Assembly (NCBI RefSeq): GCF_900176475.1
Contig: NZ_FWXX01000009.1
Location: 62,001 to 126,000, forward strand
DNA from: Tropicibacter naphthalenivorans
Lineage (GTDB): Bacteria > Pseudomonadota > Alphaproteobacteria > Rhodobacterales > Rhodobacteraceae
DNA: 64,000 nucleotides
Reading direction: 5' to 3'
The position numbers were made by a program, and so were the translations under genes. Positions within the stretch are counted from its first letter, which is position 1. Every line of letters starts with the position of its first letter. Shown here piece after piece: positions 13,515 through 31,032 of the stretch. A model generated the notes under the pieces. The model saw only the letters and a list, made by a program, of their open reading frames with translations, made no database searches and had not been told where the DNA came from.

Positions 13515-14651
13515 CTAGACCGCAGTGAAACTTGATGTACCCAACCACTTGATCGAAAAGCCCAAAAGCTGCGCGCGGATCGCCGCGCTATCCGCAGCGA
13601 GATCCACTGTGGCGAACCGGATGCAATGACCCTGCACAAGGATTGCCTCGTCGACCGTTTCGCCGATGGCGGGGTGCAGTAGCAGGCCCTCGGCAACGTC
13701 GGCCAGCGAGTCACCACGCCCGGTCTGCGACCGTAGATAGACGTAGATCTGATAAAGGTATCCGCTGCGCAGCGTGGTTTCGCGCCGCCAACCGGCCGTG
13801 ACGATCCCGGTGAACTTTGTATCAATCACGATGCGTCGGTCCGCCACCAGATCGTCGAGTACGACGTCGGTCCGCATGCCAGGCAGGATGTCCCGGGCGC
13901 CGTCGCTGCACCAGTCGACCGGCCAATCAAGTGGACGGCCCGTTCGCACATCCCAGCGGCTAGACGGCAGCACCGCGCGGTAAAAGCCGCCCACAGCCCG
14001 CTCGAAGAGCCGTCGTGCCCATTGTTCCTCCCGATCCGGCATCGGCAGGGGTCTGGGGCCCGCCGACTCGGTGGGCAGGACGAGGTCTACGGCCAGCTTA
14101 GCGGCCGCCAGCATCTCGCGATCCGCCGCGTCGTGTCGCCCGATGCGGTCAGCACTTAGCTCGCTCCGCGACGGCATCGCACCCGAGACCCCCAAAGCCT
14201 GCATGTCCGCGGCGAGGCGACGGCAGCGATGGCGCAGATCCGGGTGTGACACCAGTCGCGCCACCGCTTCCAACGCACCGCGAACAAAGCGGTTGCGCGG
14301 CGTGTCGACGCTGAGTTCGACGAAGCGACAGGCCACCGCGCCGCGCGCGAGCAGCTGGCGACGCTCGGTGCGCAAGACGTCGATCCGGCCCCGCACGCGC
14401 GAGAGGTCCGCGCTGCGCGGCCGATAGCCGAGACTCAGCTGCCGGCGCTGTCGCTCCTCCACAGCCTGTGCCAGCAGTCGCGCGACGAGGTCGGCGATCT
14501 CATCCGGGTTGCGTTCCGCGTCGACCAGCGCGCGCTCTGACGTTTTCAGCAGATCCGACGCGTAGAGCATCAGCAGCCAGATGTTGCGCACGGGGATGCG
14601 CCCGATGAAGCCCGCAGCCTCGTGCGACAGATTTGTCGCGGCAGTCACCAT
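13515..14651 (-). CDS. mcrC: McrC-like nuclease subunit of modification-dependent restriction system
   Basis: A 378-residue protein. The N-terminal IPVRNIWLLMLYASDL is the hallmark of McrC proteins, the partner of the McrB AAA+ GTPase. A PD-(D/E)xK nuclease centre is visible: Asp262 (MRTDVVLDD) and Asp277-Thr-Lys279 (RRIVIDTKFTG). McrC both stimulates McrB GTPase activity and cuts DNA that carries modified cytosine or, in variants, other modifications. It overlaps mcrB by seven bases (start at 14651, mcrB stop at 14645), so the pair is translationally coupled. It is the last gene of the six-gene - strand run. Confidence 0.88.
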   Translation of the reverse strand: MVTAATNLSHEAAGFIGRIPVRNIWLLMLYASDLLKTSERALVDAERNPDEIADLVARLLAQAVEERQRRQLSLGYRPRSADLSRVRGRIDVLRTERRQLLARGAVACRFVELSVDTPRNRFVRGALEAVARLVSHPDLRHRCRRLAADMQALGVSGAMPSRSELSADRIGRHDAADREMLAAAKLAVDLVLPTESAGPRPLPMPDREEQWARRLFERAVGGFYRAVLPSSRWDVRTGRPLDWPVDWCSDGARDILPGMRTDVVLDDLVADRRIVIDTKFTGIVTAGWRRETTLRSGYLYQIYVYLRSQTGRGDSLADVAEGLLLHPAIGETVDEAILVQGHCIRFATVDLAADSAAIRAQLLGFSIKWLGTSSFTAV

Positions 14652-16849
14652 CCCTGCAGCAGCTTCTCGACGGCATCGCGCGCTGATTTTGGGGCATCGA
14701 ACCAGTATTCATCGAGAAGTGGTCCGATTTCCGTTTCGGCAACCTGTCTGAACCACTCGCGCGTAGCGTCAGGTTCGAGTCTTGCCGTCGGCGTCACGTA
14801 GCTATGCCCGATCTCGAACTGGTGGCCAAATGCCTCACCGATCTGCGCATTCAGCGCCACGATACGCCGTTCGATGTCGTCGACGAGGGCGGGGTCGACG
14901 CCGCCTATTTCGGTTACCCACCGCCGCCAGGCTTCACCCAGCCTCGGCTCAAGACCGACGAAGGCGAAGCGCCTCCGGAACGCGAGGTCGACCAGCGCCA
15001 GCGAACGGTCTGCGATGTTCATCGTGCCAATGACAAAGAGATTCTCGGGCACATGAACCGGGCGGCGTTTGCCGTCAGCATCGGGATAGCAGAGTTCAAG
15101 CGCCTCGCGCGGCGTGCGTTTTCCAGCCTCGAGCAGGGTAAGCAGTTCGCCGAAAATCTGTGCGGGGTTACCGCGGTTGATCTCTTCGATGATTACGACG
15201 AAGCGGGCTTCTGGCCGGCTAAGCGCCGCACGGATCGCCTCCATGAAGACGCCGTCGGCAAGGGTCAGCTTGCCATCGCCGCTCGGACGCCAGCCGCGCA
15301 CGAAATCCTCGTAGGAGAGGTTTGGGTGGAACTGGACCGCACGGACGCGCGCCTCGTCGCGTTCCCCCATCAGTGCGAACGCGAGGCGCTTGGCCATCCA
15401 AGTCTTGCCCGTTCCCGGCGGTCCCTGCAGGATCAGGTTCTTGCGCGTGCGCAAGCGCTCCAGCAGGCGGTCGATCTCCCCGCGCTCCAGAAAACATCCC
15501 TCGCGCAGGATGTCGTCAGCATCGTATGGCACAGCTGGCGCTGGCATCTGGACCGGATCGACAACAGCCGCATCGTCTTCGTCCTCATTGGGCGCGGCGC
15601 CTCCTTGGTCGGCCTCGGCCTGAGACTCTTCGGGCCCCTTATAGTGCCATGCGGCCAGCGACAGTTCGGGGAAGCTGTGGACCGGGTAGCTTTCCTCAGA
15701 AAAGCGCGCCTTCAGGTCGTCCACCAGCTTGAGATAGGTCGCGCCACTGCACGGCTTCTGCGGCCCTATCGTCGGGACCCGCATCTGTAACCGGCTAGTG
15801 AGGAATGAGCGCGAGTTGCTATCAAGGGTCGGGAACTCCCACGGATGTGACCAGTAGAGCCCTGTCGAGAGGTTCCATGAGGCGCCCCAAACGTCGATGG
15901 CCGCGTCGTAGTCGGCGATGAATTGGTCCCGCTGATCGGGCTGATCAGATTCCACCAGCGCTGCGGCGGCAGCGAACAGGTCCCATAGCTTGTCGATGTC
16001 GCCTTCGCCGCGCTTGTCGCCGTATCGAAAGAACCAGGATCGCTGGTTGTTGAGGACCGGAATACCCTCGAAGGTGCTCGGAGGCTCCTCCTCCACGCCG
16101 ATCAGCTTGGCAATCGCTCTCGCGATCACGCTCCGATTGGAGTCGGTCATGGATCGGTTGAACGTGCCCATCGCCGTAAAGGGGCAGATGTCGCGCAGTG
16201 GGCCAGTACCGCCTTCCGGGTAGCGGTCCTGCAAATAACCGAGCCCCGCCATCTCTTGCGCGATTGCATGGATGCCGTCGATCAGGGGCTTGCGGTCTGC
16301 CCGGTAGTCCAGGAGCTTTGCCGCAACGGCGCTGTAGAAGGATGTCCAGCGGAAACGCTGCTCGCCGTCCGCGTCGCCGAACCGCTCCCGCCAGAACGGT
16401 TCATTCCGGAACCGGTCGAGGTCCTGCCGCTGGCCGTCGAATGTGAAGGAGAGGAGGCCATCCTCCATCCAGCCGCCCGGCGCGACCCGCCAAACCGTGG
16501 CGCGGTTTGTGTAGAAGTACCATTCGCGGGGCGGCGATACGGGCGTCCAGTTGACCTGAACACGCTTGCCATCGTCTAGATTGGCAGTGATCGTGCCGAC
16601 CGCCTTTATGGCCATCACTGAGACAGTGGCACCGCGGTTGTCGAACGGCAGTTCCCGCTTGCGAGTATAGGATGACTTGATCGCGATCCTGTCCCCCGGG
16701 CGCATTGAGCGCACGAGATCGCTATATTTGCCGTCTTCGTAGCCGTTCTCCCAGATGCCTTCAGCGAGAAATCTGGGCGTCTGGTCCTCGGTGCGATTAT
16801 ACGCGGCGCCGACAAACCAGCTGGGCCTGATGTTTAAAATTTCCGACAT
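14645..16849 (-). CDS. mcrB: McrB-like AAA+ GTPase with N-terminal DNA-reader region
   Basis: A 734-residue protein. The AAA+ core is at the C-terminal end: Walker A GPPGTGKT (476-483), Walker B VVIIEEINRGN (551-561) and the McrB signature MNIADRS (610-616) followed by the RRRF arginine cluster. The first about 125 residues (WFVGAAYNRT, then GDRIAIKSS, ending WRV) form a separate beta-rich domain that could be an EVE/PUA-like base reader; the middle region (about 150-400) is not recognised and includes an acidic linker at 408-430. The start lies 15 bases after the res stop. The substrate cannot be told from sequence. Confidence 0.87.
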   Translation of the reverse strand: MSEILNIRPSWFVGAAYNRTEDQTPRFLAEGIWENGYEDGKYSDLVRSMRPGDRIAIKSSYTRKRELPFDNRGATVSVMAIKAVGTITANLDDGKRVQVNWTPVSPPREWYFYTNRATVWRVAPGGWMEDGLLSFTFDGQRQDLDRFRNEPFWRERFGDADGEQRFRWTSFYSAVAAKLLDYRADRKPLIDGIHAIAQEMAGLGYLQDRYPEGGTGPLRDICPFTAMGTFNRSMTDSNRSVIARAIAKLIGVEEEPPSTFEGIPVLNNQRSWFFRYGDKRGEGDIDKLWDLFAAAAALVESDQPDQRDQFIADYDAAIDVWGASWNLSTGLYWSHPWEFPTLDSNSRSFLTSRLQMRVPTIGPQKPCSGATYLKLVDDLKARFSEESYPVHSFPELSLAAWHYKGPEESQAEADQGGAAPNEDEDDAAVVDPVQMPAPAVPYDADDILREGCFLERGEIDRLLERLRTRKNLILQGPPGTGKTWMAKRLAFALMGERDEARVRAVQFHPNLSYEDFVRGWRPSGDGKLTLADGVFMEAIRAALSRPEARFVVIIEEINRGNPAQIFGELLTLLEAGKRTPREALELCYPDADGKRRPVHVPENLFVIGTMNIADRSLALVDLAFRRRFAFVGLEPRLGEAWRRWVTEIGGVDPALVDDIERRIVALNAQIGEAFGHQFEIGHSYVTPTARLEPDATREWFRQVAETEIGPLLDEYWFDAPKSARDAVEKLLQGW

Positions 16850-16864
16850 TCCGCAAAATCCTGT

Positions 16865-19800
16865 CTATGCCGCCATGCGATTTATTATCGAGGCGACATA
16901 GGTGTCTTTTCGATCCTCCATGAACAGAACATGCATGTCCTCCAATTCATGGATCGTTTTGCCCCAGTTCAGCTTGCCGAACCGTGTTGGTGTGACGATA
17001 AAGCTGTTCAATATGACGTTCTCGCTGGCGAGCCTTGCCTGGATGCCCTTGATGACCTGATGGAACTCAATCTTCTTGTGGCCAGGGCCTTCATGCTGGA
17101 GGCCATGAGGCTCGACGAAAGCCAAGTGCTGTCTGCCGTCCTTCACGAGCCATAGAAGGAAGTCGGGATAAAAATTTCCTGCCTCAAAGAAGCCCACCCC
17201 GCGCCCGCGGCTCTCGTTGCGAAGCAAGAAGAGTTCAATTCCCTCCGCCGCCAGCCGTGCTTGATCCTTTTCGATGAAAAGGCGCAGATCATCCAAGAAC
17301 TGGAACTCGCTCTCATTCAATGAAACCGGCGCGATCTGGATTTTGCTTCCCTTGGCCGCATGAAGCACGGGCTCGTAGAGATGCGTGCCAAACAGGCAGC
17401 CTTTCAAGTCGCCAGCACGCAACACCCCGGCTTTTCGAGCCGATATCTCGCCGGTGAGGTTCTGGATGTCGTTGATGAGCGCGGTTTCGCTGGCATCGAC
17501 GATTAGCTGGTATTCCTCCGCTTCAGGCAGGCTTCCGTCACCGGCTTCGATCTCACGGAGTTCAAGACGTGGCTCAATAAAGGCTGCCTTGCAGTAGTTA
17601 TAGTATTCTTCCGAGAATTTCTGCAGCAGCTCCGCCGCCATCTCCTGCCAGAGCGCGACGTTCCCAAAATCCGAGAACTCCATCTTCCCCGAAGGCACGA
17701 CGACCTTGTACCAGGTCCGGTCAGTGAGCAGTGCCCTGATCATGGACTTGGAAATGTTGAGATTGTGCCAAGTGCGCTCACGCTTGAATTTCTCAAGACG
17801 GAAGAAAAGATCGTCGTAGTCCAAGAAGTCCAAGTGGCCATCTTCGAAAACGGTCTCCTCCTTGGTGCCCAGCCTGCTGCCCTTCTTGGACTCGAGAGAC
17901 TGGATGCGGGGATACCAATCTATCGTGACGCCCTTTTGGTGTATCTTTGCCGGGACCAACGTCAGGGCCGGCACAGCGCCATCCCTCTTAAAATCGTACT
18001 CGCGACCGTCACCGCGCTTCTTTCGGGGGCGCAGCACCTTGAGGCGTTGCCCGAAGTCGTATGTGACCGTCAGCGGAACTGTGAAGACCTGCTTCTGATC
18101 GTTGCGGGGCAGCTCTTCCTCTTCGAGGAACTTCCGGAATCGCTCCATGAAGTCAGCCTCGATCCCGAAGACATTCAGGGTCTCGACATACTGTATGAGT
18201 TCCGGTTGATGGGTGGGGGTGGCGAAGCCGCTACGCTGGAGCGACCAGTCATACCCTTTTAGCCGGACGCCGCGCCCGAAAAGCTGAATGATCTGCGCGC
18301 CTTCGCTCTTGCCGACATGCATGAGACCAAGGGTGCTGACGCGCCAGCAATCCCAGCCCTCGACAAAGCGTTTGGAGCCGATGAGCAGATTGACCGGGGA
18401 GCTGGACAGGTTGATCTGCCCGAACATCGTCTCGGCAAACTCAGATTCCAGGACCGCGACGTTGTCGAACTCCTGCTCAGCGATGTGGGTCGCCAAGCCG
18501 GATGCGTCGCCGACGTTTATGAGCCCGAAGGGCTTCTCAGCCTGGCCGACGCGCAACATGATCTCGTTCTCGTCGCCCTTGATCCGGGCAATCGACAGCT
18601 CACCACCGGCCCGGTTCTGAAAGAGCTTTTCAAGGATGTCGCGGAACAGGTCGCCGGGCTTCCAGCCCTCGCGAAGCATGAGCTGCTGTAGGTAGACGAA
18701 ACCGCCGGCGAATATGTCGCCGCCGTTCTCATCGAGGAGACCGGTCTCCTGAGCGTTACCGCTGAGGATCCGCTCGATCTCGGCGGCCGACGTACCCTCG
18801 CTCTTCAGGAACTTCGCTATGAAGGCAAGAATCTTGCCCACGTCAGAAACTGTAGCCTTCTCGGCCTTGGATCCGGTGGCCTTGGTCACGCTGGAGCCGA
18901 CGAAAACCCAGAGCGGTTTCTCGATGTTGTAGGGCGCATAAATGCCCTGCTTGTCCTCGTAGAGCTTCAGCTGCTGGTAAAAACTCAGAAGGCAGGCAGT
19001 CAGGTACGAGAATTCGAGCTGGGAGAAGGTCCGCGGAAGGTTGAAGATGCGGTAGTCCTTGCCATAGCCGTCCTCGTAAAAGTACCGGTACGAATAGTCG
19101 AACAGGATCGTCTTCGCGTAGGACGCTTCGATATCGGGACGCTTCGCGGCAGTGACAGCCTCCTTCAGCGTCGCCGAATACTCGAAAACAAAACCCTTCT
19201 CCGACAGGCGGGCGCGGCTTCGGAACCAGCCGCGTTCTTCCTGGCTTCCCATGCCACGATGGGCCTCGTCGACGAGCAGCAGATTCTGGTCGCCGAGATT
19301 GCGTGTCGCGATGACGTTGGGCCCGTCGGTGTCTCCGAGCTTTGTCACCTCGGTGAAGTCCACCTGACGCAGCCCGTTCTTGCCCGAGGACAGCAGATCG
19401 CCGCTGTCCGTCAGCAGGCGCGACGCGACGATATTGCTGCCCTTCATCTCGCGCGCGTGCTGCAGGGAAAGCTGCTCGTTCGGCGTGATCAGTACCGTCC
19501 GCGTCAGGTCGTGCTTGAGTGGCGACTTCGAGGCGTAATGCCTGAATTGCAGGAAGTTGACGTGCATCAGCAGCGTCTTCCCCGAACCGGTGGCGTTCTG
19601 CAGGCAGAGCTTATTCAGGTCATCGAGCTCGTAGGGCGTGATCCCCGTCTCGTAGCCCTCATCGGTCCAGTACTTGTCGAACGCATCGACATAGGCGTTC
19701 AGCGCATCGAGCAGCGCGGCGCGATCAGCGAAGAACCGGTCGAGATAGATCTCGGCGAACAGCAGCGAGAGCCACTGGTAGTACTTCCACACGATCGGCC

Positions 19801-20119
19801 GGTCACGCTTCTCGTTGATCGCCAGCGTGTGGCTGACGATGTTGTGCTCGTAGCGCAGCAGATCGGCCCGCGTGATCTCGGCGCCTTCCTGCAGGTGGAC
19901 GTCCAGCGCCTTGTAGAAGTGGTGCAGGTTCTCGGACGTCATGCCCTCGGGCGCATCCTTCACCGTCTTGGCCAGCGGCTGCACCGGCCGCAGGGTGCGC
20001 TTGCCGTCCTTGTGGTCCTTCAGCGGATCGAAGCCGAACAGGCTGACGATCCACTGGTTGAGCACCAGCTTGTGGCCAAAGGGGAGCGGCTTGATCTTGG
20101 ATTTGGGCTTTCTTGCCAT
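16865..20119 (-). CDS. Type III-like restriction subunit: DEAD/DEAH helicase with C-terminal nuclease-like domain
   Basis: A 1084-residue SF2 translocase. Motif I is ATGSGKT (176-182), motif II DEAH (284-287), motif III FEYSAT, and the second helicase lobe holds [10 protein letters not shown] and QLFGRGVR (motifs V/VI). This motif set matches Res subunits of type III restriction systems. Near the C-terminus YPDFLLWL followed 13 residues later by FVEPHG resembles a PD-(D/E)xK centre, with E-x-H instead of the usual E-x-K, also common in Res relatives. The gene starts three bases after the methyltransferase stop, so the two are one Mod-Res pair. It is larger than EcoP15I Res by about 100 residues. 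Confidence 0.85.
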
Positions 20120-20122
20120 CGC

Positions 20123-23100
20123 TCAGCCCTCCACGTCCCACATCGCCTGGTGGAAGGCTTCCTCGATGAGGCGCACCTTCCAGGTCTCCTCGTCCTTGCG
20201 GAGGTTGGGCAGGTTGTTGGAGCCATTCACGTAGATCACGTCGAACTCGGTGTCCTGCGCGGAGAGGCGGTACTTCCGGAACCACTCGTCCAGCATCAGA
20301 TTGTCCTGCTCGAGATCGCCGGTCAGCTTCCGCCAGACCACCAGCGCCTTCTCCCGGTCGTTGTGATCACCGGGGGTGCGCAGGGTGTAGCCCTCGACCT
20401 TGCGGAAGCGCCAGGTGCCGTCGTCCGTCTCTTTCAGCGCGCCGTCGAGCATCAGCCGGGTGTTCGTGTCGCCCGGTAGCTCGGGATCGACCTCGCGCTT
20501 GAACGCGGCGTCATAGCCGCGCCATCGGTCCAGATGCTCGACATGCAGGCCGGTCAGCCAGTTGAACGTCTCGACCAGGTCCACGGCTTTCTCGACATAC
20601 TCGTCCGTGCCGGGCTTCTTGATCTTCAGCTTGTAGGCGGTCGGATCGTCGAACCACTCGATGTTCAAAAGCGACGGGCTGCCCTTGGTCTCGAAGTCGA
20701 GCCAGTAGCGGAGCATGTAATCGCGCTCGAAGTCGCCTTTGGCCCCTTTGAAGCCGGCTCCGGGGAGGAGCGTAAGGTTGTTCAAGGCATCTTCGTAGCT
20801 TTCGAGCCGAACATATTTGAACAGAGCGGACAAGCCGTCGTTCGAAAGCGGTTTCCCGTCCCGCCACTGTGACGCGTAGATTGCCTTCTGCATTCTCGGT
20901 CGCGTCACTGTATCAAAGTATTCGCCCATCTCAACTAGACAGAACTTGCGGGAGCCGTGATCAGCTCTGTTCAGCGATAGCACGGCATGCCCAGTGCTTG
21001 CCGAGCCGCCGAAACAATCAAGGATCGTCGAGTCTTTTTCTGCCGCGTGCGTTATGAAACGAGAGACAAAATCAGCATGCTTCGGCGCAAGGAAAATACC
21101 AGACTGACCGAACATCGCAGAGGTTTGCTTTTCGCCGTCTGAATAATCTACAAAAATACTTTTTCCGACGTTTGTTTCGACTTCATGAAGCATTCTCTTG
21201 ATTTGGGGAACCTTGGCTTCGGTGTCGCCCCATGCAATACGCCCGTCCTCGTCCAACGTCTTAAGTGTTGTTCGATTTGTGTCATCCTCCGCTCGGTCAT
21301 ACGGAAACTTCCAACCACTCTTGGGCATTGTGACCGGCTTTCCTGTTATTGGATGATTGGCAGTATAGAATCGATAGTTAGGGCTCTTGGGATCACGTGT
21401 ACTTGCGGCTTGTTTGGTCGCAGGTAGTGCGAGGTCAGACTCCCTGAAGACCCAGATCTGCGCTTGAAGCTCTCTGGCAACGGACTCGTCAACGATCTTC
21501 CCATCAGCATCGCGGTATTCTGCATTCTTATAGTTAAACAGTCCCTTCCACGGGTCGTCCTTCTGAAAGTCTTCCCACTCAAGACCTTGCGCTTCTATTT
21601 CTTCGCGGTAAGCGATTTTGTGATCGTTGTATAACTTCTTGATTGCCTCTTCAATTTCCGAGATCGGCGGATAATCCGGGTTTAGGGCTGCAACAAGCTC
21701 CATGACTTCCAAGTAGCCAGGCTTTGGCTCACGGAACATGCTGCGGTCTTTCTCGGCAGTCGGCTTATCTTTGGCATAAACCAATACATACTCGTGGTTC
21801 GTCGAGTAATTTGGGACCTGGCTATTATTTGTGTTCATTGACCAGATCAGCTCTTCGACACGGTTCTCCGCCCCAAATACGGCATCCATCGCATGTTCAA
21901 GTACCGTGCGTTCGGATTTGTCGATACTCACGAAGATCGCGCCATTTTTTGGCAGCATCGGCTTCATCGCTCGAAGCCGATCATGCATCAAAGTCGCCCA
22001 TGAAGAGTGCTTGTAGCTGTTCTTGTAGGGAATTGAACTGCTATCAGTGTTGTAGGGCGGGTCAATATAAATGCACTTCACGCTATCCCTTAGCTTTTCC
22101 TCAAACAGCCTCAGGGCCTGAAAGTTGTCCGAATGAACGAGTTGGCCCGATTGCTCAGCGTCTATGTCTTGAAGTCGCGCCAATATGTCTTCTTTGGTTT
22201 CGGCCGTGAGGAAACAGGTGTCCAAGAGAAGCTTTTGATTTTCCCTCAAGAAATCGACGGATAGTGGCTCTGAGTATCCCTGCATTTGGTCGATCGCAAA
22301 AAGCTTGACCCACTCTTTCCGCTGGGCCTCGTTGGCCGCAATCTCTGGATAGAATTCCTCCGGGATGCGGTCGAGCGTGATGCAGTACTGGGTGTCGACG
22401 ACGAATTTCTTCTTCAGCCACAACCGCTTCTGGAAGTCCTCGAGCTGGGCGAGGAAGTCGATCAGATGCTGTGCGATGCGGCGCAGCACCTTGACCTTGG
22501 CCAGGTAGGCTTCCACCCGCGGCGCATCGGCGGACTCGATGTCGTCCAGCCGCATCACCTCGTTCTTGATGTAGAAGTCCAGCTCGCGCCGCAGGAACCC
22601 GCCCAGATCCTTGTGGATGAAGTAGTCCATCGTGTTCCGGCCCGTGTACTGGGCCAGGTACTTCTCCAGCAGCGTCCGGTCCTTCTCGGCCTCGGTCGGC
22701 GCCGGGGTCGTCAGCGCGGTCACATAATCGTTCGCGCCCTCCAGCTTGGGCAGCAGTGCCTTCACCTTGTCGGCCGCCTCGGCGAGGCGCTTCTTGCGCC
22801 AGGTGCCGTCCTGGCCGGTCTTTTCGGGATCCGGGCGGTACTGGAACTGGATGACCAGCTCCGGCTCGCCGGTGTCGCCCATCTCGATCTTCACCGGCTC
22901 CGGCTCGTGGATGATGAAGTAGCGTTCAGTCTGTTCGGACGCCTTGACGTTGTTGTGCTCTCCCTCGGACGCCGAGACGATCCGGCAGTGGACCTTGAGC
23001 GGCTTCTGCTCAAACAGCGCGCCGTGCTTGTCCTTGAACTCCTTCGCCTGCGTCGGATCGAAGGTGAAGTTGGTCAGGTACTCGGACGTCTTGATGTAGT

Positions 23101-23596
23101 ATTGATCGCGGTTGGCCCAGTGCAGATAGACCTCGCGCCCGTCATAGGGAACGGCGTAGGGGGCCGCCTTGCCGTCCGTCTCGCGCGCGAAGTAGCGGCG
23201 GCTCATGAAGTCGCCGTTGTCGTAGTAGCGCTCGAAGAAGCGGTAGAGGTGGTCGTAGACGTCGCCCTCGTTGCTGCCGCTCTCCTTCGCCGCGTCCCAG
23301 GCCGCCTTGGCCTTCTTCACCGGCTCGGTCACGTCCGGATCGGGCGCGCCGTATTCGATGGCCTGCTGGCGGGCAGCCTCATGCGCGGCCTTGGCCTGCT
23401 CGACACGGGCGCCATCCGCCTCGCCGAATGCATCGCGGATGATGCTCAGCAGATCTTCCTCGAGAAACTTGGTCACCCGGCCGGCCTTCGCATGCATGAT
23501 GCGATAGAAGCCGAAGTCCAGGTCGGGCTGGTCGAGCTGGAACAGCTCCTTCAGCAGGCTGATCAGGCGTTCTCGTTGTTTCTCGACGTTCGGCAT
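20123..23596 (-). CDS. Large beta-class N6-adenine DNA methyltransferase (Mod-like)
   Basis: A 1157-residue protein, nearly twice the usual type III Mod. Catalytic motif IV DPPYN lies at 512-516 and the AdoMet motif [13 protein letters not shown] at about 860-871, so motif order IV then I marks the beta class. Motif I is divergent (SASTG for the usual GSGTT). Residues 1-500 form a long N-terminal region with coiled and charged parts; the 320 residues between the motifs include a target recognition region. Start: ATG at 23596 follows AGGAG by nine bases; a GTG at 23629 overlapping the helicase stop (GTGA) is an alternative with no clear ribosome site. Expected product is N6-methyladenine on host DNA. 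Confidence 0.85.
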
Positions 23597-23625: not shown

Positions 23626-26514
23626 TCACACGACCGCCCAGCGGACGGCGAAGAGCTCCTGTTTGCTGATATCCTGTTGGAGGCGGGTTTCCAGGTCCGA
23701 GATCATCTGATCACGCTCGTCGATGATCTCGTCCTCCACCTCGAAGATGCGTTGGCGAAGCCGACGCTTGGATTTCTCCAGGTCCTGAATCTGCATCTGG
23801 ATCCGGTGCTGATCCTCGGGGGACTCGGCCGTTCGCGCCTCGCGCTTGAGTTCGAGGATCCGCGCCTTCGCGTCCTTCAATTCCTTTTCGGCGGCGAAGA
23901 CCTTGTCCTCGGCCCACCTTTCGAGCTTCTGGCTCTCGGCCGAGAACCACTCCGCGTTCTGGCGCTTCAGAGCGTCGGTCACAGCTTGTTCGCGTACAGC
24001 GAGCGGGCCCTCCAATCGGGATTTCTCGATGGTCGCGACCCCGCCTGTGATGCGGCAGGGCATGTCGAAAAGGCGCCGAACGACATCTTCTTCGATCAGC
24101 TCGCCCTCATCGGTCATCGCCGCGAACAGGATGTGGTCCTGCGCATCGAAGCCTGAAAAGCTGAGGCAGCGTGCAGCGAGGATTCCGCCGCGCCCCACAA
24201 GCGGTTCGATGCTGACGGCCTTGGCTGGCCATGCTGAGTAATCGAATGCCAAAGAGGCTGCTTCGAGGATTCGGCCCTTGGCCCGCTCAATGACATGCTG
24301 CGCCAGCGGGTGACCCAAACGGTATCTGTGTTCGCTCAGACCGTTCTTGGCGATCCCGTAGCCTCCAGCGGGCACAGCAAGCCCACCCGGCGGCTCCTTC
24401 AGGGTGAAGGTGAGGTGTTCGTCATCGAACTGAGCTCGGTCGCGGAGCTCATGCCGCGTCACCGCCCAGAGCATCCTCTCGTATCGCCCGACATACTCCT
24501 TGCTCTTGTCGAGATTGATCTTCAGGCGGTCATGCACCTCGGCGTCGAAGTTCTCCAGCAGCTTCCGCCGAGTGTCCTCCATCGCAACGCTGATGTTCTC
24601 GTCCATTTCGCCCCGAAGCCGAGAGAACTCGGTCTCGATCTCTTCTGTTGTTCTGCACGTCTGGTAGATGGTGACGATCCGCTTTTCGAATTCGACACCG
24701 GACTCGATTGACCCCAAAACCTCGTCGGAAGCGCCGAACACCCCGGAGAATAGCTGAAACTTTTCGGCCAGAAGCTCGTAAACGCGTTGGTCTGCGGCAT
24801 TGTTTTTGTTCAGGAAATTGACAACCACAACGTCATAGAGCTGGCCGTAGCGGTGGCAACGACCAATGCGTTGCTCGATTCGCTGGGGGTTCCAAGGCAG
24901 ATCGTAGTTCACCACGATGGAACAGAATTGAAGGTTGATGCCTTCTGCGGCGGCCTCTGTTGCAATCATGATCGAGGCATTCTCGCGGAAGTACTCGACC
25001 AATGCCGCACGTATGTCGGCTGTCCGTGAGCCAGTAATGCGATCGCTACCTTTGTGCTTTTCGAGCCAGGCATCATAGATCTGTTTGGATTGCTCGTCGG
25101 TGTTAGACCCGTTGAAAAGAACGAGCTCATCGCCGTAGCCGTTGTCTGACAGAAGGCGGACAAGATACTCTTGGGTGCGGCGTGACTCTGTGAAGATGAT
25201 AGCCTTCTGCGCGGCACCAAGTTGTTGGGTCTTGGCGAAACCAGCACTCAACGCGCTGAGAAGTGCTTGCCCCTTCGCGTTTTCAGAAATCGAAACAGCG
25301 AGGTCGCGGAATTCGCGTAGGTCGGAGATTTCCTTCTTGATCGCGTTCACATCTTCCGGGGACAGCAATTCGGGCTGGTCATTGCTTTCTGGCCACTCGT
25401 CTGCGAGTTCATCGAACTCCTCGTAGTCTTCCGCTAGTTCCTCCTCGAGCTTGCTCCGCAGGTCAGTGTCTTGCTTGAGTTGCCGCTCAAGCTTCCGCGC
25501 AAGGGAGTCGAGAGCGCCTGCGATGGCGAAAGTCGAGGATGCGAGCAGCTTCCGCATGATCAACGTCATTAGGGTTCGCTGCGATGACGGCAACGCGTGC
25601 AGAGAAGGCCTTCGGAGGTAATCCGATACCATGTCGTAAAGAGCCTGCTCTGCCTCGGTTGGCACGAACTCCTGCGTGATCGGAATGCGATTTGTGTACC
25701 GTATATATTCGAGCACCTGGCGACGGAGCGTTCGATGGCAGACAGCTTGCAGTCGCAGCTTCAGTTCGTCGAACTGATCATCACCGGTCAGCCGCGCGTA
25801 CTTGGCCCTAAAGCTCTTGGCGTCACCGAAGGTGAAGTCATCGATTAGGCTGACGAGTCCGTACAACTCCATCAGCGAGTTCTGCAGGGGCGTGGCGGTC
25901 AACAGGATCTTGGGCGCGTTCATGAGTGCGCCCTTCAGAGTGCGTCCGATCCGATTGTCTGGTCGGTACACGTTCCTAAGGCGATGCGCCTCGTCGATCA
26001 CCACCAAATCCCAAGGAATGACCATCAAAGCCTCGGCGTGCCGTGCCGCAAATTGAAAAGAGGAGATCACAAGGCGCTTCTGATCGAATGGGCTACGCAC
26101 CCCATCCTTCGACATCTTGTTGTAGTTCTTCGCCTCGAGGATAAGCGTCGGAAGGAAGAACTTTTCCTCGACCTCTTGCGACCACTGCTTCCGCAAGTTG
26201 GCTGGCGTAATGATCAGAATGCGACGTTTCCCTTCGGCCCATTTCTGAGCGAGAACCAATCCAGCCTCGATTGTTTTTCCAAGACCCACTTCGTCAGCCA
26301 GAATCGCCCCTTTCGAGAGCGGTGACTTGAACGCAAACAGCGCGGCTTCAACTTGATGAGGATTGAGGTCCACCTGCGCGTCCAACAGTGCCCCAGCGAT
26401 TTTTTCATTGTCGGCGACGGAATGCCGCTTGCTCAGTTCGTGCGCAAATAGCTTGGCGTGATACTCTGTGATCAATTCAGCACTCCGGAACCTGGCTTGC
26501 AGGACCGACGGCAT
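23626..26514 (-). CDS. SNF2-family helicase/translocase
   Basis: A 962-residue ATPase from the ATG at 26514. Helicase motif I is DEVGLGKT (74-81), motif II DEAH (174-177, VIDEAHRLRN), and the second lobe has EGINLQFC, YDLPWNPQRIEQRIGRCHR (motifs V/VI), the SNF2/HepA pattern. The C-terminal 200 residues contain a long coiled coil with ERW, KELKDAKARILELKREAR and KSKRRLRQRIFEVEDE. Similar proteins are DrmD of class 1 DISARM and orphan helicases near methyltransferases. The gene overlaps the end of the WYL gene by 38 bases, so translation is coupled. An upstream frame extension to 26643 exists but would overlap the WYL gene far more. Confidence 0.85.
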   Translation of the reverse strand: MPSVLQARFRSAELITEYHAKLFAHELSKRHSVADNEKIAGALLDAQVDLNPHQVEAALFAFKSPLSKGAILADEVGLGKTIEAGLVLAQKWAEGKRRILIITPANLRKQWSQEVEEKFFLPTLILEAKNYNKMSKDGVRSPFDQKRLVISSFQFAARHAEALMVIPWDLVVIDEAHRLRNVYRPDNRIGRTLKGALMNAPKILLTATPLQNSLMELYGLVSLIDDFTFGDAKSFRAKYARLTGDDQFDELKLRLQAVCHRTLRRQVLEYIRYTNRIPITQEFVPTEAEQALYDMVSDYLRRPSLHALPSSQRTLMTLIMRKLLASSTFAIAGALDSLARKLERQLKQDTDLRSKLEEELAEDYEEFDELADEWPESNDQPELLSPEDVNAIKKEISDLREFRDLAVSISENAKGQALLSALSAGFAKTQQLGAAQKAIIFTESRRTQEYLVRLLSDNGYGDELVLFNGSNTDEQSKQIYDAWLEKHKGSDRITGSRTADIRAALVEYFRENASIMIATEAAAEGINLQFCSIVVNYDLPWNPQRIEQRIGRCHRYGQLYDVVVVNFLNKNNAADQRVYELLAEKFQLFSGVFGASDEVLGSIESGVEFEKRIVTIYQTCRTTEEIETEFSRLRGEMDENISVAMEDTRRKLLENFDAEVHDRLKINLDKSKEYVGRYERMLWAVTRHELRDRAQFDDEHLTFTLKEPPGGLAVPAGGYGIAKNGLSEHRYRLGHPLAQHVIERAKGRILEAASLAFDYSAWPAKAVSIEPLVGRGGILAARCLSFSGFDAQDHILFAAMTDEGELIEEDVVRRLFDMPCRITGGVATIEKSRLEGPLAVREQAVTDALKRQNAEWFSAESQKLERWAEDKVFAAEKELKDAKARILELKREARTAESPEDQHRIQMQIQDLEKSKRRLRQRIFEVEDEIIDERDQMISDLETRLQQDISKQELFAVRWAVV

Positions 26515-27382
26515 TGCCGACGGAGGGGATATGGCAAGTAATGAGTTCCCGATTGAGGAGCACGATCTGCTGATCCTGCGGCTTCCTGGCGAATGGATCC
26601 GTGTCCAGCCCAAGGCGCTTGAGGGTGTAATAGAGAAGTGCACGGCGAACCTTGATTTCGGCTTTCCCGTCTTGCATGCCGTAGTCGAGCGCGATCACCT
26701 TGGCCTGTGTCTCGGACAGGTCCGGGTGGGGCCCCACCTTCAGCGTGACCTCCGAATGCCAGTCGTCGTCTTCGGCGGCAGAGGTTGCAGCATCGGCGGT
26801 CTCGCGCACCTCAAGTATCCGAGACAGCAGGAAGTCCTTGAAACTATTGCCCGTCATGCAAAAGGCTCGCGCATGCCAACGAAACCCATCGAAGGCAATG
26901 GCGTGGGGCGCAATCCAGCGCCAACGCGGCTCGGGATTGGACAAGGATTGGTAGTTGATCTCTATCGCCTCAGTCCGGCGAATGGCACCAACGACCGCGC
27001 GTAAGGTTTCAGGATGAACGCCGCGCACAGGAGTAGGCGTCGAGCCAAAGGCCGGCAGGTCAGTGGTCCAGCAGTCATCGCGGTCGAGGAGCCCATCCTC
27101 AAGGGAGCGCAGCTGGGCCAGGTAGCGGCCAGCGTCCAGCTTTCCGAACACAGACTTGAAGCCCGGGCCGCGCACATAGGTGCGCGCGCTCTTGTCGTAG
27201 GTCATGTTGTCGGGGGCAAAGCTGATGTAGCGATTCAGGTCGGTTGAAGCCTGGTTCACCGACAGCCCGAACTGCTCCATGACATCGCTTCGGTTCACAT
27301 GACCCTCCCAGAACAGGCGAAACTCGATGAACTCGAGCCGCTGCTCGACGCCCCAGCGAAGTTCCGACCTGTCGATTTCCAC
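26477..27382 (-). CDS. WYL-domain transcriptional regulator (BrxR/CapW-like)
   Basis: A 301-residue protein if started at the GTG 27382, which has GGGAG seven bases upstream; a TTG at 27430 in frame is less likely. The N-terminal about 70 residues form a winged helix-turn-helix (VEQRLEFIEFRLFWEG, then FGLSVNQASTDLNRYI). The middle holds a WYL-type domain (IEINYQSLSNPEPRWRWIAP, then FDGFRWHARAFC and FKDFLLSRILEV), and the C-terminus a WCX-like region. This three-part layout is that of BrxR and CapW, regulators at the head of BREX, CBASS and other defence operons, which bind palindromes and repress. Two palindromes lie directly upstream. Confidence 0.85.
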   Translation of the reverse strand: MEIDRSELRWGVEQRLEFIEFRLFWEGHVNRSDVMEQFGLSVNQASTDLNRYISFAPDNMTYDKSARTYVRGPGFKSVFGKLDAGRYLAQLRSLEDGLLDRDDCWTTDLPAFGSTPTPVRGVHPETLRAVVGAIRRTEAIEINYQSLSNPEPRWRWIAPHAIAFDGFRWHARAFCMTGNSFKDFLLSRILEVRETADAATSAAEDDDWHSEVTLKVGPHPDLSETQAKVIALDYGMQDGKAEIKVRRALLYYTLKRLGLDTDPFARKPQDQQIVLLNRELITCHIPSVGNAVGPASQVPEC

Positions 27383-27425
27383 TACGCGCTCCCGCCTTGG
27401 TCGATGCGCACGATTACTATGCGCG

Positions 27426-27438
27426 CCCAATTATTGGG
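27426..27438 (-). promoter_or_regulatory. Palindrome, candidate operator of the defence operon
   Basis: A perfect 13-base inverted repeat, CCCAAT T ATTGGG, about 45 bases upstream of the GTG start of the WYL gene. On the - strand a CATAGTAAT stretch lies between the palindrome and the start and could serve as a -10 element, which would put this site near the spacer or -35 position. A WYL dimer binding here would repress the six-gene operon. No measured data. Confidence 0.4.
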
Positions 27439-27630: not shown

Positions 27631-27831
27631 TCAGTCCCCGGCCTTGTCCGCTGGGATCTCGCTCAGCTCCCGATTTTCGAATGCCACGACATCCTCCATC
27701 CGGTAGATGACCAAGCGTCCGATCTTGATGAAGCGCGGCCCTTCGCCAAGGGAGCGCCAGTATTCGAGGGTCCTGTGGCTGATCCTCCATCGTGCTGCCA
27801 GCTCAATTTGGGTCAGACGGGTGTCAAACAT
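27631..27831 (-). CDS. Small AlpA/MerR-type helix-turn-helix protein
   Basis: A 66-residue protein from ATG 27831, with AAAGGA nine bases upstream. It has the excisionase-type winged helix layout: QIELAARWRISHRTLEYWRS (helix-turn-helix with recognition helix), GPRFIKIGRLVIYRMEDV (wing) and a short C-terminal helix AFENREL. Such proteins act as phage excisionases or AlpA-type regulators. It is 248 bases upstream of the defence operon on the same strand and has a paralogue immediately upstream with about 60% identical residues over the core. Confidence 0.7.
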   Translation of the reverse strand: MFDTRLTQIELAARWRISHRTLEYWRSLGEGPRFIKIGRLVIYRMEDVVAFENRELSEIPADKAGD

Positions 27832-27933
27832 TTTCGTTTCCTTTCGTGCGATCTCAACGGCCGAAATGCAAACTCCCTGCGCGTCCATAACAATGCTTCG
27901 CGCAGGGTTTTGCTGACGATGCCCGCGCGGGAT

Positions 27934-28209
27934 TCAGCGCCCGGCCTTTATCTCCTCCAGGTCGCGCAATTCTTGATTTTCGAACGCAAGGACATCTTCG
28001 AGGCGGTAGATCACGCGCCCGCCGAGCTTCATGAAGCGCGGCCCATCGCCGATCCACCGCCACCGCTCAAGTGTCCTTGGGCTAATTCTCCATCGAGCAG
28101 CCAGCTCGATTTGCGATTTGACTGAGGCACATTTCTCGCATTTTCGTTTCCTTTCGAGCGACCACCGTGGTCGCACGACAACGAATGCGTAGAAAGAAAA
28201 CCTATTCAA
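27934..28209 (-). CDS. Paralogous helix-turn-helix protein, start unclear (possible N-terminal frameshift)
   Basis: Same fold as the gene at 27631: QIELAARWRISPRTLERWRW, GPRFMKLGGRVIYRLEDV and AFENQEL. The leader CGAAAGGAAACGAAAATG upstream is identical to that of its paralogue, but here the ATG (28141) is out of frame with the domain and would give only 19 residues. The domain frame is open to 28209 but contains no ATG, GTG or TTG between the leader and the domain. Either translation starts far upstream at a poor site or the copy has lost its start by a small indel, leaving it silent. The coordinates give the open frame, not a proven protein. Confidence 0.45.
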   Translation of the reverse strand: MNRFSFYAFVVVRPRWSLERKRKCEKCASVKSQIELAARWRISPRTLERWRWIGDGPRFMKLGGRVIYRLEDVLAFENQELRDLEEIKAGR

Positions 28210-29926: not shown

Positions 29927-30589
29927 TCATCTCTCCCGCAAGAACACTTCATCTCCTGTCGCCCAGCCTAGGATCAACGGCATGCCGCAAGGAGCCGTGA
30001 TCGTGCTGGGCGAATTGCGGTTTGGTGAAGCCCCCAGGAAGTCACAGAACGCCGCGAAGTTGTCATACCAGCGGTGCTCCTGCGAGAATGACTGCACGAT
30101 CATCGCGGCGGCCTCTGTCCCGAAACGGCGCGCCTCGATGATGGCTGCTGCTGTGCGATGGAAGAGTTGGTAATACATCTCTTCCGGAGGGTTGCTGCAC
30201 CCGAGGAGATCGCAGATGGCAGACAGGCGCGCTCGCTTGCCATCCGAGGCGTTCCGCATCCAATCCCCGATAGTCCGGTCGAAAGGCTCGGCAACCTTCG
30301 CTTCCACGGCCACCGCGATCCGGCGATCAGATTCGCGCACCAAGGCAAAGACGTCGCACTGGCTTGCCGCACCACGGCCGGGCAGGGGGACCTTGTGCTC
30401 GGGTATCGCCAGCAACAGCTCTGCATCAGGCGCGAACATGGCTGCGATCTCCGGCGGCAACCCGGCCGCAGCTTCCCACGATTGAGCGGCGGCCATAGCT
30501 GAGTAGCCTGCGCGCCAGTGCTTGTCGGGATCGCCAAGCAAAGCGCGCCAGTCGAGAGGAGTGCGTGTCGGGATGTAGATCTTGGCCAT
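29927..30589 (-). CDS. Uncharacterised protein with PD-(D/E)xK-like motif
   Basis: A 220-residue protein from ATG 30589. The middle holds CDVFALVRE followed by VAVEAKVAEPF: Asp79 and Glu96-x-Lys98 in strand-like contexts, as in PD-(D/E)xK nucleases. Before it is the pattern EHKVPLPGRGAASQ, suggesting a substrate loop. I recall similar proteins grouped as DUF6946, but cannot confirm. The gene lies between the dead integrase and tRNA-Cys and reads toward the island. Its frame continues upstream past tRNA-Cys to 30871 as an artefact. A nuclease, toxin or defence role is only inferred from motif and place. Confidence 0.6.
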   Translation of the reverse strand: MAKIYIPTRTPLDWRALLGDPDKHWRAGYSAMAAAQSWEAAAGLPPEIAAMFAPDAELLLAIPEHKVPLPGRGAASQCDVFALVRESDRRIAVAVEAKVAEPFDRTIGDWMRNASDGKRARLSAICDLLGCSNPPEEMYYQLFHRTAAAIIEARRFGTEAAAMIVQSFSQEHRWYDNFAAFCDFLGASPNRNSPSTITAPCGMPLILGWATGDEVFLRER

Positions 30590-30742
30590 GCCAAAACATC
30601 GCCCAGAAGAGCCGAAGTTGGCAACAGTTCCGATGTTCAAAGGGCGGCGCGACAGGGCAGTTTGTAAACCAACCTGTAAACCGGGCATTTTCTGGCCCCT
30701 CGTAGTAGGTCCAATTTTGCCAGAAAGCTCAGAATAAAAATA

Positions 30743-30816
30743 TGGAGGCGAGTACCGGAATCGAACCGGTGTACACGGATTTGCAATCCGCTGCGTCACC
30801 ACTCCGCCAACTCGCC
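30743..30816 (-). tRNA. tRNA-Cys (anticodon GCA)
   Basis: A 74-base cloverleaf on the - strand starting GGCGAGTT at 30816 and ending ACTCGCC TCCA at 30743, with CCA encoded. The acceptor arms GGCGAGT/ACTCGCC pair, the T arm contains GGTTCGATTCC, and the anticodon loop ATTGCAAAT places GCA at 30784-30782. The 3' end faces the relic integrase and the defence island, the usual orientation for an element integrated into the 3' part of a tRNA gene. Confidence 0.97.
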
Positions 30817-31032
30817 TTCCGAATGCTCCGGGCGGGGCCCGGGGCGTGTGGTTGGCACTGATTATGCCCAACGTCGGGGCGCGTCAACTGCATAATTCCC
30901 ACTTTTCGACGCCCTGCTCGCAACCTTTGACAGGTGATCGCTTTCCCTCAATTTGAGGCGTGCAAGACATTGCCGCCGCTCGGCAAGTATGGCACAAACG
31001 TTGCAAAGTAACTGAACGAAAGAGTTTAGTGC

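Follow-up and report, generated by a model that had tools for sequence, protein, structure and literature searches.

The locus raises the question of why the methyltransferase subunit (Mod) of a Type III restriction-modification system should carry several hundred residues ahead of its catalytic motif. Within the window, the stretch of 64,000 nucleotides from Tropicibacter naphthalenivorans that was analysed, the region 20123-23596 contains many stops on the plus strand and the coding frame lies on the minus strand, with 1157 residues and a stop codon, an ATG at 23596 and an in-frame GTG 11 codons upstream. An earlier note, made from the sequence alone, had described a very large methyltransferase with about 500 residues before DPPY, and this description is borne out, the motif being found at residues 512-515. 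The PADLOC MTase_III profile PDLC03646 (1057 positions) covers the protein, and the Type III beta-class order is present: DPPY at 512, a variable region and motif I at 862. The Pfam N6_N4_Mtase match is restricted to a central segment (Table 1) and the match to the closest solved sequence, the EcoP15I Mod (E=4.8e-32), starts no earlier than approximately residue 439. In an AlphaFold2 model of the whole Mod (61 sequences) the methyltransferase core is confident (most blocks 85-96) and the N-terminal extension (NTE) is weaker. The modelled core and C-terminal domain (CTD) resemble Type III Mods, both 6k0w_C (Z 30.5, rmsd 2.9, 347 aligned) and 4zcf_B (Z 29.9, rmsd 8.7, 468 aligned), and the match to the EcoP15I Mod extends to chain residue 644.

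The size of the protein was compared with that of its relatives, which were collected from 84,980 species genomes, the best 80 of 204 encoded relatives being kept; these gave 78 loci, referred to here by L numbers. The statement that Mods usually have 600-700 residues is roughly right for the solved structures (644, 618 and 567 residues) but does not hold in this Mod's own branch, where the 60 full-length relatives range from 1022 to 1190 residues (median 1104) and DPPY, in those in which it was found, lies at 474-547; the 18 of 78 Mods that are partial or split were excluded from lengths and alignments. Of 289 genomes sampled evenly from the window's class, 12 match PDLC03646 at E <= 1e-30; five of these, with the window's genome among them, have a frame longer than 1000 residues. 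A search of 72,556 plasmids found 29 records with a match to the NTE and 736 with one to the methyltransferase core. The long Mod is an ordinary subunit of a widespread and already described Type III branch, and is no oddity. The earlier note had considered that its extra region might prove to be a common Mod-family N-terminal domain of known simple function; it is a standard part of a common Mod branch, but no known function was found for it.

Table 1. Positions of the features at the locus, in window coordinates.
Feature	Position	Strand	Basis or remark
Mod, 1157 aa, Type III beta-class amino-methyltransferase with long N-terminal extension	20123..23596	-	PDLC03646 E=2.5e-192; N6_N4_Mtase residues 506-885
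N-terminal extension (NTE), Mod residues 1-430	22307..23596	-	Conserved shell varying with Res; dN/dS
Exchangeable methyltransferase core, ~residues 441-950	20747..22276	-	DNA-identity borders; EcoP15I-like by sequence and model
Catalytic motif IV, DPPY, Mod residues 512-515	22052..22063	-	
AdoMet motif I, FGGSASTG, Mod residues 862-869	20990..21013	-	
C-terminal domain (CTD), Mod residues 953-1157	20126..20740	-	Conserved, varies with Res
Res, 1084 aa, helicase-nuclease, NTE-associated class	16865..20119	-	PDLC03654 E=1.2e-170; ResIII, DEAD
Res nuclease motif PD...EPH, residues 985-1005, His in usual Lys position	17105..17167	-	
SNF2-type ATPase, closest to DrmD	23626..26475	-	Likely TTG start at 26475
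WYL-domain regulator, upstream of operon	26477..27430	-	Homologue before SNF2 in L014, L018, L021, L022, L058
McrB-like AAA GTPase gene adjoining Res, neighbouring system	14645..16849	-	Also in L018, L058, L081
McrC, neighbouring system	13515..14651	-	NF007277 390.8 bits, cut-off 338

The Mod gene lies in a minus-strand series that runs from the WYL regulator through the SNF2 ATPase, Mod and Res to McrB and McrC. The SNF2 frame as listed begins at a GTG at 26643; its similarity to relatives begins only at residue 57 or 58, which suggests the TTG start, directly after the WYL stop. The McrBC genes directly follow Res here and at three other loci (L018, L058 and L081, the last partial and with McrB only), and given this repeated adjacency both systems may travel together. 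At seven loci (L007, L009, L010, L016, L035, L041 and L044) variable cargo lies inside the operon, between SNF2, Mod and Res: an AAA_21 ATPase, alone or with DUF4276, RhuM, Fic, a YhcG nuclease, PDDEXK_3 or GmrSD. The window operon has no cargo genes at these places. At L150:4218-13675 an SNF2 of the same subfamily accompanies a short Mod, and a GmrSD-like gene lies between that Mod and a classical Res. The WYL gene is preceded, also on the minus strand, by a tandem pair of similar small HTH_17-like proteins (27631-27888 and 27934-28209, of which the former was scanned for this call). Further on, a tRNA-Cys (30743-30816, minus strand) overlaps the 5' part of a DUF6946 frame (29927-30871), the start of which is therefore probably later; the tRNA gene could be an island border.

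A partner for the extra residues was sought in the way the parts of Mod vary with their neighbours. Across 54 Mod-Res pairs, identity in Mod residues 1-400 correlates with identity in Res at rho 0.93 and that in residues 921-1157 at 0.85, as against 0.15 for the core (401-920). Correction for phylogeny in these comparisons was limited to a permutation test and the core as internal control: the observed Mantel value was reached in none of 2000 permutations for the NTE, none of 2000 for the CTD and 106 of 2000 for the core. In the 38 loci with all three genes, the partial correlation between NTE and Res given SNF2 is 0.91. The NTE is under purifying selection (dN/dS 0.07-0.12 for the window against five relatives), and the synonymous divergence of NTE and CTD goes with that of Res in four of five pairs. 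The fifth pair differs: between L005 and the window, pS is 0.41 for the NTE and 0.35 for the CTD but 0.73 for Res, so that the two ends of Mod are much nearer the window than is the accompanying Res, and the inheritance of shell and Res can differ.

The NTE is also associated with one class of Res, found at 81 of 98 NTE loci and at five of five among 39 further loci, or 86 of 103 together. Conversely, the 35 Mods without an NTE have a classical Res (25) or no detected Res (10), and none has the NTE-type Res. The 17 of 98 NTE loci at which no NTE-type Res is visible are mostly, though not solely, those on contigs that stop within Mod or shortly beyond it. L032 also has a weak classical Res match (40 bits) on the other strand. 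Two Mods of intermediate length (837 and 877 residues) combine a weak match to the NTE profile (98 and 91 bits) with a diverged Res of the same class. Given that the Mod of the window seeded the sample, and its neighbours the Res profile, this association is weaker than the counts imply. The earlier proposal that the extra part may link to Res is thus in keeping with the co-variation (Mantel 0.93 against 0.15 for the core) and with the Res class; the link is supported indirectly, by co-variation between sequences. As for Res itself, ResIII and DEAD matches and the ATGSGKT and DEAH sequences are those of an SF2 helicase, and a search of its profile against the PDB found nothing, the EcoP15I Res included. 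At its PD-(D/E)XK site the PD and E are kept and His stands in the Lys position, a motif (PD...(E/D)PH) seen in 54 of 59 aligned rows (four have Lys and one, L013, is a fragment); the Lys is kept in the Eco86II Res, its E. coli relatives, distant relatives and classical Res. With His in place of the usual catalytic Lys, cutting by the window's Res is uncertain.

The low correlation of the core has a counterpart at the DNA level. Between the window and six relatives (L014, L015, L017, L018, L022 and L058) identity stays at 81-93% between SNF2 and Mod residue 429-451, is undetectable across the core, and in all six is again 89-95% from residue 933-954 through the end of Res. Where both NTE and CTD are at least 85% identical (57 pairs), the core is below 50% in 46, at 50-80% in eight and above this in three. 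The pattern recurs in E. coli, where an SNF2-NTE query matches 152 of 5426 genomes: of 60 listed rows, the match runs on into the core in 16 and ends in the other 44 at one base, at approximately Mod residue 389 of L190. L190 and L193 have one common Res protein accession and flanks that are 99.0% and 98.0% identical, with core bins at 16-62%; Eco86II and three such E. coli Mods are 93-95% identical in the NTE, 89-92% in the CTD and 28-33% in the core. Judged from these alignments, the whole methyltransferase core is swapped as a unit between nearly identical shells, within E. coli as well. No description of whole-methyltransferase exchange in Type III Mods was found in the open-licence literature, supplements aside, which is weak evidence of absence. 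It is conceivable, and is put forward tentatively at a little under even, that NTE, CTD and Res make up a constant restriction engine into which whole methyltransferase cartridges are slotted, recombination at two fixed borders altering both the target and the methylation chemistry; this would make it a restriction enzyme that is modular by nature.

Methylation chemistry enters through the Eco86II core, to which six of the 65 cassettes are 45-53% identical, the next being at 35% and that of the window at 34%. Those six and Eco86II all read HIDPPY, and the six are, by inference from their sequences, candidates for m4C methylation. Cassettes of this kind sit in shells whose near-identical relatives hold unrelated cassettes, an example being L011 and L029, with 87% identity in the NTE and 40% in the core. 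The window cassette lies outside this set, and m6A would be a guess for the base that it methylates.

The NTE had been described as a long helical region, and the models do place helices up to approximately residue 126 and from ~263 to 400, but with a beta part between them (~199-255); confidence is low at ~127-175. Structure prediction of the N-terminal region alone, which the earlier note had proposed, yielded a moderate model (86 sequences, mean pLDDT 75.5, pTM 0.51) but no convincing fold match: Foldseek against PDB and viral structures returned nothing with E <= 0.001 and the best VIA-align match (Z 6.6, rmsd 2.5, 48 residues) was uninformative. Given that the model is of moderate quality, the fold may still be a known one. 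At the sequence level, nothing in the PDB scored below E 0.2, and Pfam searches of 73 NTE sequences gave weak matches to IcmF_helical in 29 (E up to 1, best 0.0027) and to HTH_40 in seven (best 0.00084). The NTE had zero matches in 50,697 phage records, and relatives of it are encoded on 19 IMG/VR contigs.

The explanation that is considered probable is that this is the Mod of a Type III system of the Eco86II branch, in which the shell evolves with Res and docks or controls that class of Res, and the core serves as a cartridge. The EcoP15I-like core would let Mod recognise and methylate an asymmetric site, and Mod and Res together would attack unmethylated DNA. The first ~430 and last ~205 residues would constitute the conserved shell that evolves with Res, and it is inferred that this shell docks or controls the NTE-associated class. 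The core (~441-950) could then be swapped as one unit, giving the same restriction engine a new target. Predicted on this view are an NTE that touches Res, a window copy that is active and the base which it methylates; family membership, the borders of exchange, and the co-variation and co-occurrence of NTE and Res class are observed. Against this explanation, co-inheritance alone can yield co-variation, and the Eco86II Mod methylates without Res, so that making methylation dependent on Res is not what the NTE is there for. The seeding of the sample, the divergence at L005, the 17 NTE loci at which this Res class was not seen and the His in the window's Res also count against it.

A further reading, close to the earlier note's suggestion of a link to SNF2, is that the extension is an adaptor for the SNF2 ATPase. 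An SNF2 gene does end within 1.5 kb upstream at 55 of 72 long-Mod loci (at four more within 3 kb), as against one of 29 distinct short-Mod loci. These counts leave out the six of 78 long-Mod loci with less than 1 kb upstream; three of 37 short Mods were dropped for the same shortage, leaving 34, from which four duplicates under second names and L091, an intermediate 838-residue Mod with an NTE, were removed. However, the partial correlation between NTE and SNF2 given Res is -0.08, NTE Mods without an adjacent SNF2 exist among the sampled loci, and the SNF2 of L150, 68% identical to that of the window, stands beside a short Mod without NTE and a classical Res. With wider surroundings, some SNF2 is found at five of the 35 Mods that lack the NTE. 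Synonymous divergence from L058 and L015 is 0.73 and 0.71 for SNF2, and 0.25-0.29 for the NTE and 0.23-0.24 for Res. The Eco86II fraction that cuts DNA did so without detected SNF2 (PMC8259958). On the co-variation and the pairing of SNF2 with a short Mod the adaptor was rejected as extremely unlikely, and the ATPase appears to be a loose companion. It is likewise highly unlikely that the AdoMet motif, which the earlier note had called divergent (GGSASTG), signals a lost or changed methylation activity. The variant is present, with Ala in place of the second Gly of FxGxG, but it is mild: GSA occurs in five of 65 cassettes (the window, L005, L037, L064 and L066), of more than one type and with DPPY kept. 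Another chemistry could be argued for, since FGG has been named as motif I of m4C Type III Mods (PMC8259958); against this, Eco86II, a proven m4C Mod, has FAGSGTSG and the window core falls outside the cassettes that resemble it. The core dN/dS between the window and L005, which hold a common cassette, is 0.039, and loss of activity was rejected on these grounds. Motif I differs from one exchangeable cassette to another, and in these comparisons the variant looks like a cassette feature.

An alternative with more weight, though still unlikely, is that the NTE is a separate module, serving in DNA binding, Mod dimerisation, control of methylation or sensing of phage, which tracks Res only through co-inheritance of mod and res. 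The agreement of NTE and CTD with Res in synonymous divergence in four of five pairs is as plain co-inheritance would have it, and the NTE resembles no fold found in the PDB, Foldseek and VIA-align comparisons. Furthermore, conserved stretches such as 151-170 are modelled with low confidence, which would fit an interface with any partner. However, the NTE follows Res, which is 2 kb away with the core between, and not SNF2, which is approximately 30 bp away. In addition, the NTE goes with the one Res class even in very distant Mods (L149 and L152, the latter by profile comparisons too).

If the shell does couple to Res and the core is a cartridge, a single recombination step would re-aim the restriction engine with coupling to Res retained, because both Res-linked ends stay in place. 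This would account for the retention of the extra 430 residues, would allow the coupling of a Type III Res to a core with which it does not co-evolve to be tested, and would predict in which strains m4C is used. Closely related E. coli chromosomes hold different cartridges in one shell, which makes the proposal testable.

Comparison with known systems places the locus within Type III. In DISARM, DrmD is accompanied by drmA and drmB partners, DrmB being the carrier of the MZB domain (PF09369). The window SNF2 is most similar to DrmD_b, at 702 bits and thus under the curated cut-off of 950, and an MZB-domain protein is absent from the window's genome; membership of DISARM was therefore rejected. 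BREX combines PglZ and BrxC with a methyltransferase and a helicase, and neither is among the matches listed for the eight frames scanned (for SNF2, the best 25 of 51 families), so that the locus was not assigned to BREX. Type III systems methylate one strand, require two inverted sites and cut approximately 25 bp away.

EcoP15I (PDB 4zcf) shares with the window Mod a methyltransferase core with motif IV, recognition domain and motif I, and a CTD, but has neither NTE nor SNF2. Contact between the CTD of one Mod and Res is reported for EcoP15I (PMC4490356), which fits the co-variation of CTD and Res seen here. ModA of Neisseria and Haemophilus is alike in that recombination inside mod, between conserved ends, changes specificity; there the recognition domain alone is reported to vary, with both catalytic motifs inside the conserved ends (PMC2667262, PMC3311624), whereas in the window's branch the whole core is exchanged. 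The nearest parallel is among the six m4C Type III systems characterised by Murray et al. 2021 (PMC8259958), two of which, Eco86II of E. coli NCTC86 being one, carry a further ATPase gene, helicase-like and 5' of mod, a layout reported in >500 genomes. Eco86II Mod alone methylates GAGCC, to m4C, and a partly purified fraction cuts ~25 bp from sites, the extra ATPase being dispensable for methylation and undetected in that fraction (PMC8259958). Its genes were located in NZ_LT601384 (5046030-5055447) in the order SNF2, Mod (1040 aa) and Res, as in the window, and match the three profiles of the branch (NTE 492, Res 1004 and SNF2 1459 bits); the classical Res profile did not match the Eco86II Res. 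The two differ in that the cores are 34% and the NTEs 43% identical, the Res motif is DPK in Eco86II and EPH in the window, and the Mods have 1040 and 1157 residues. The branch, as a grouping by NTE, Res class and SNF2 gene 5' of mod, is defined here, PMC8259958 defining the extra ATPase gene only, and the window has all three features: an NTE of ~430 residues, its class of Res and the SNF2 gene. Given that Eco86II matches all three profiles, the branch to which the window system belongs includes a member that has been studied by experiment; the Eco86II-type system was already known, and what is added here is the anatomy of NTE, core and CTD, the association of the NTE with Res and the exchange of the whole core.
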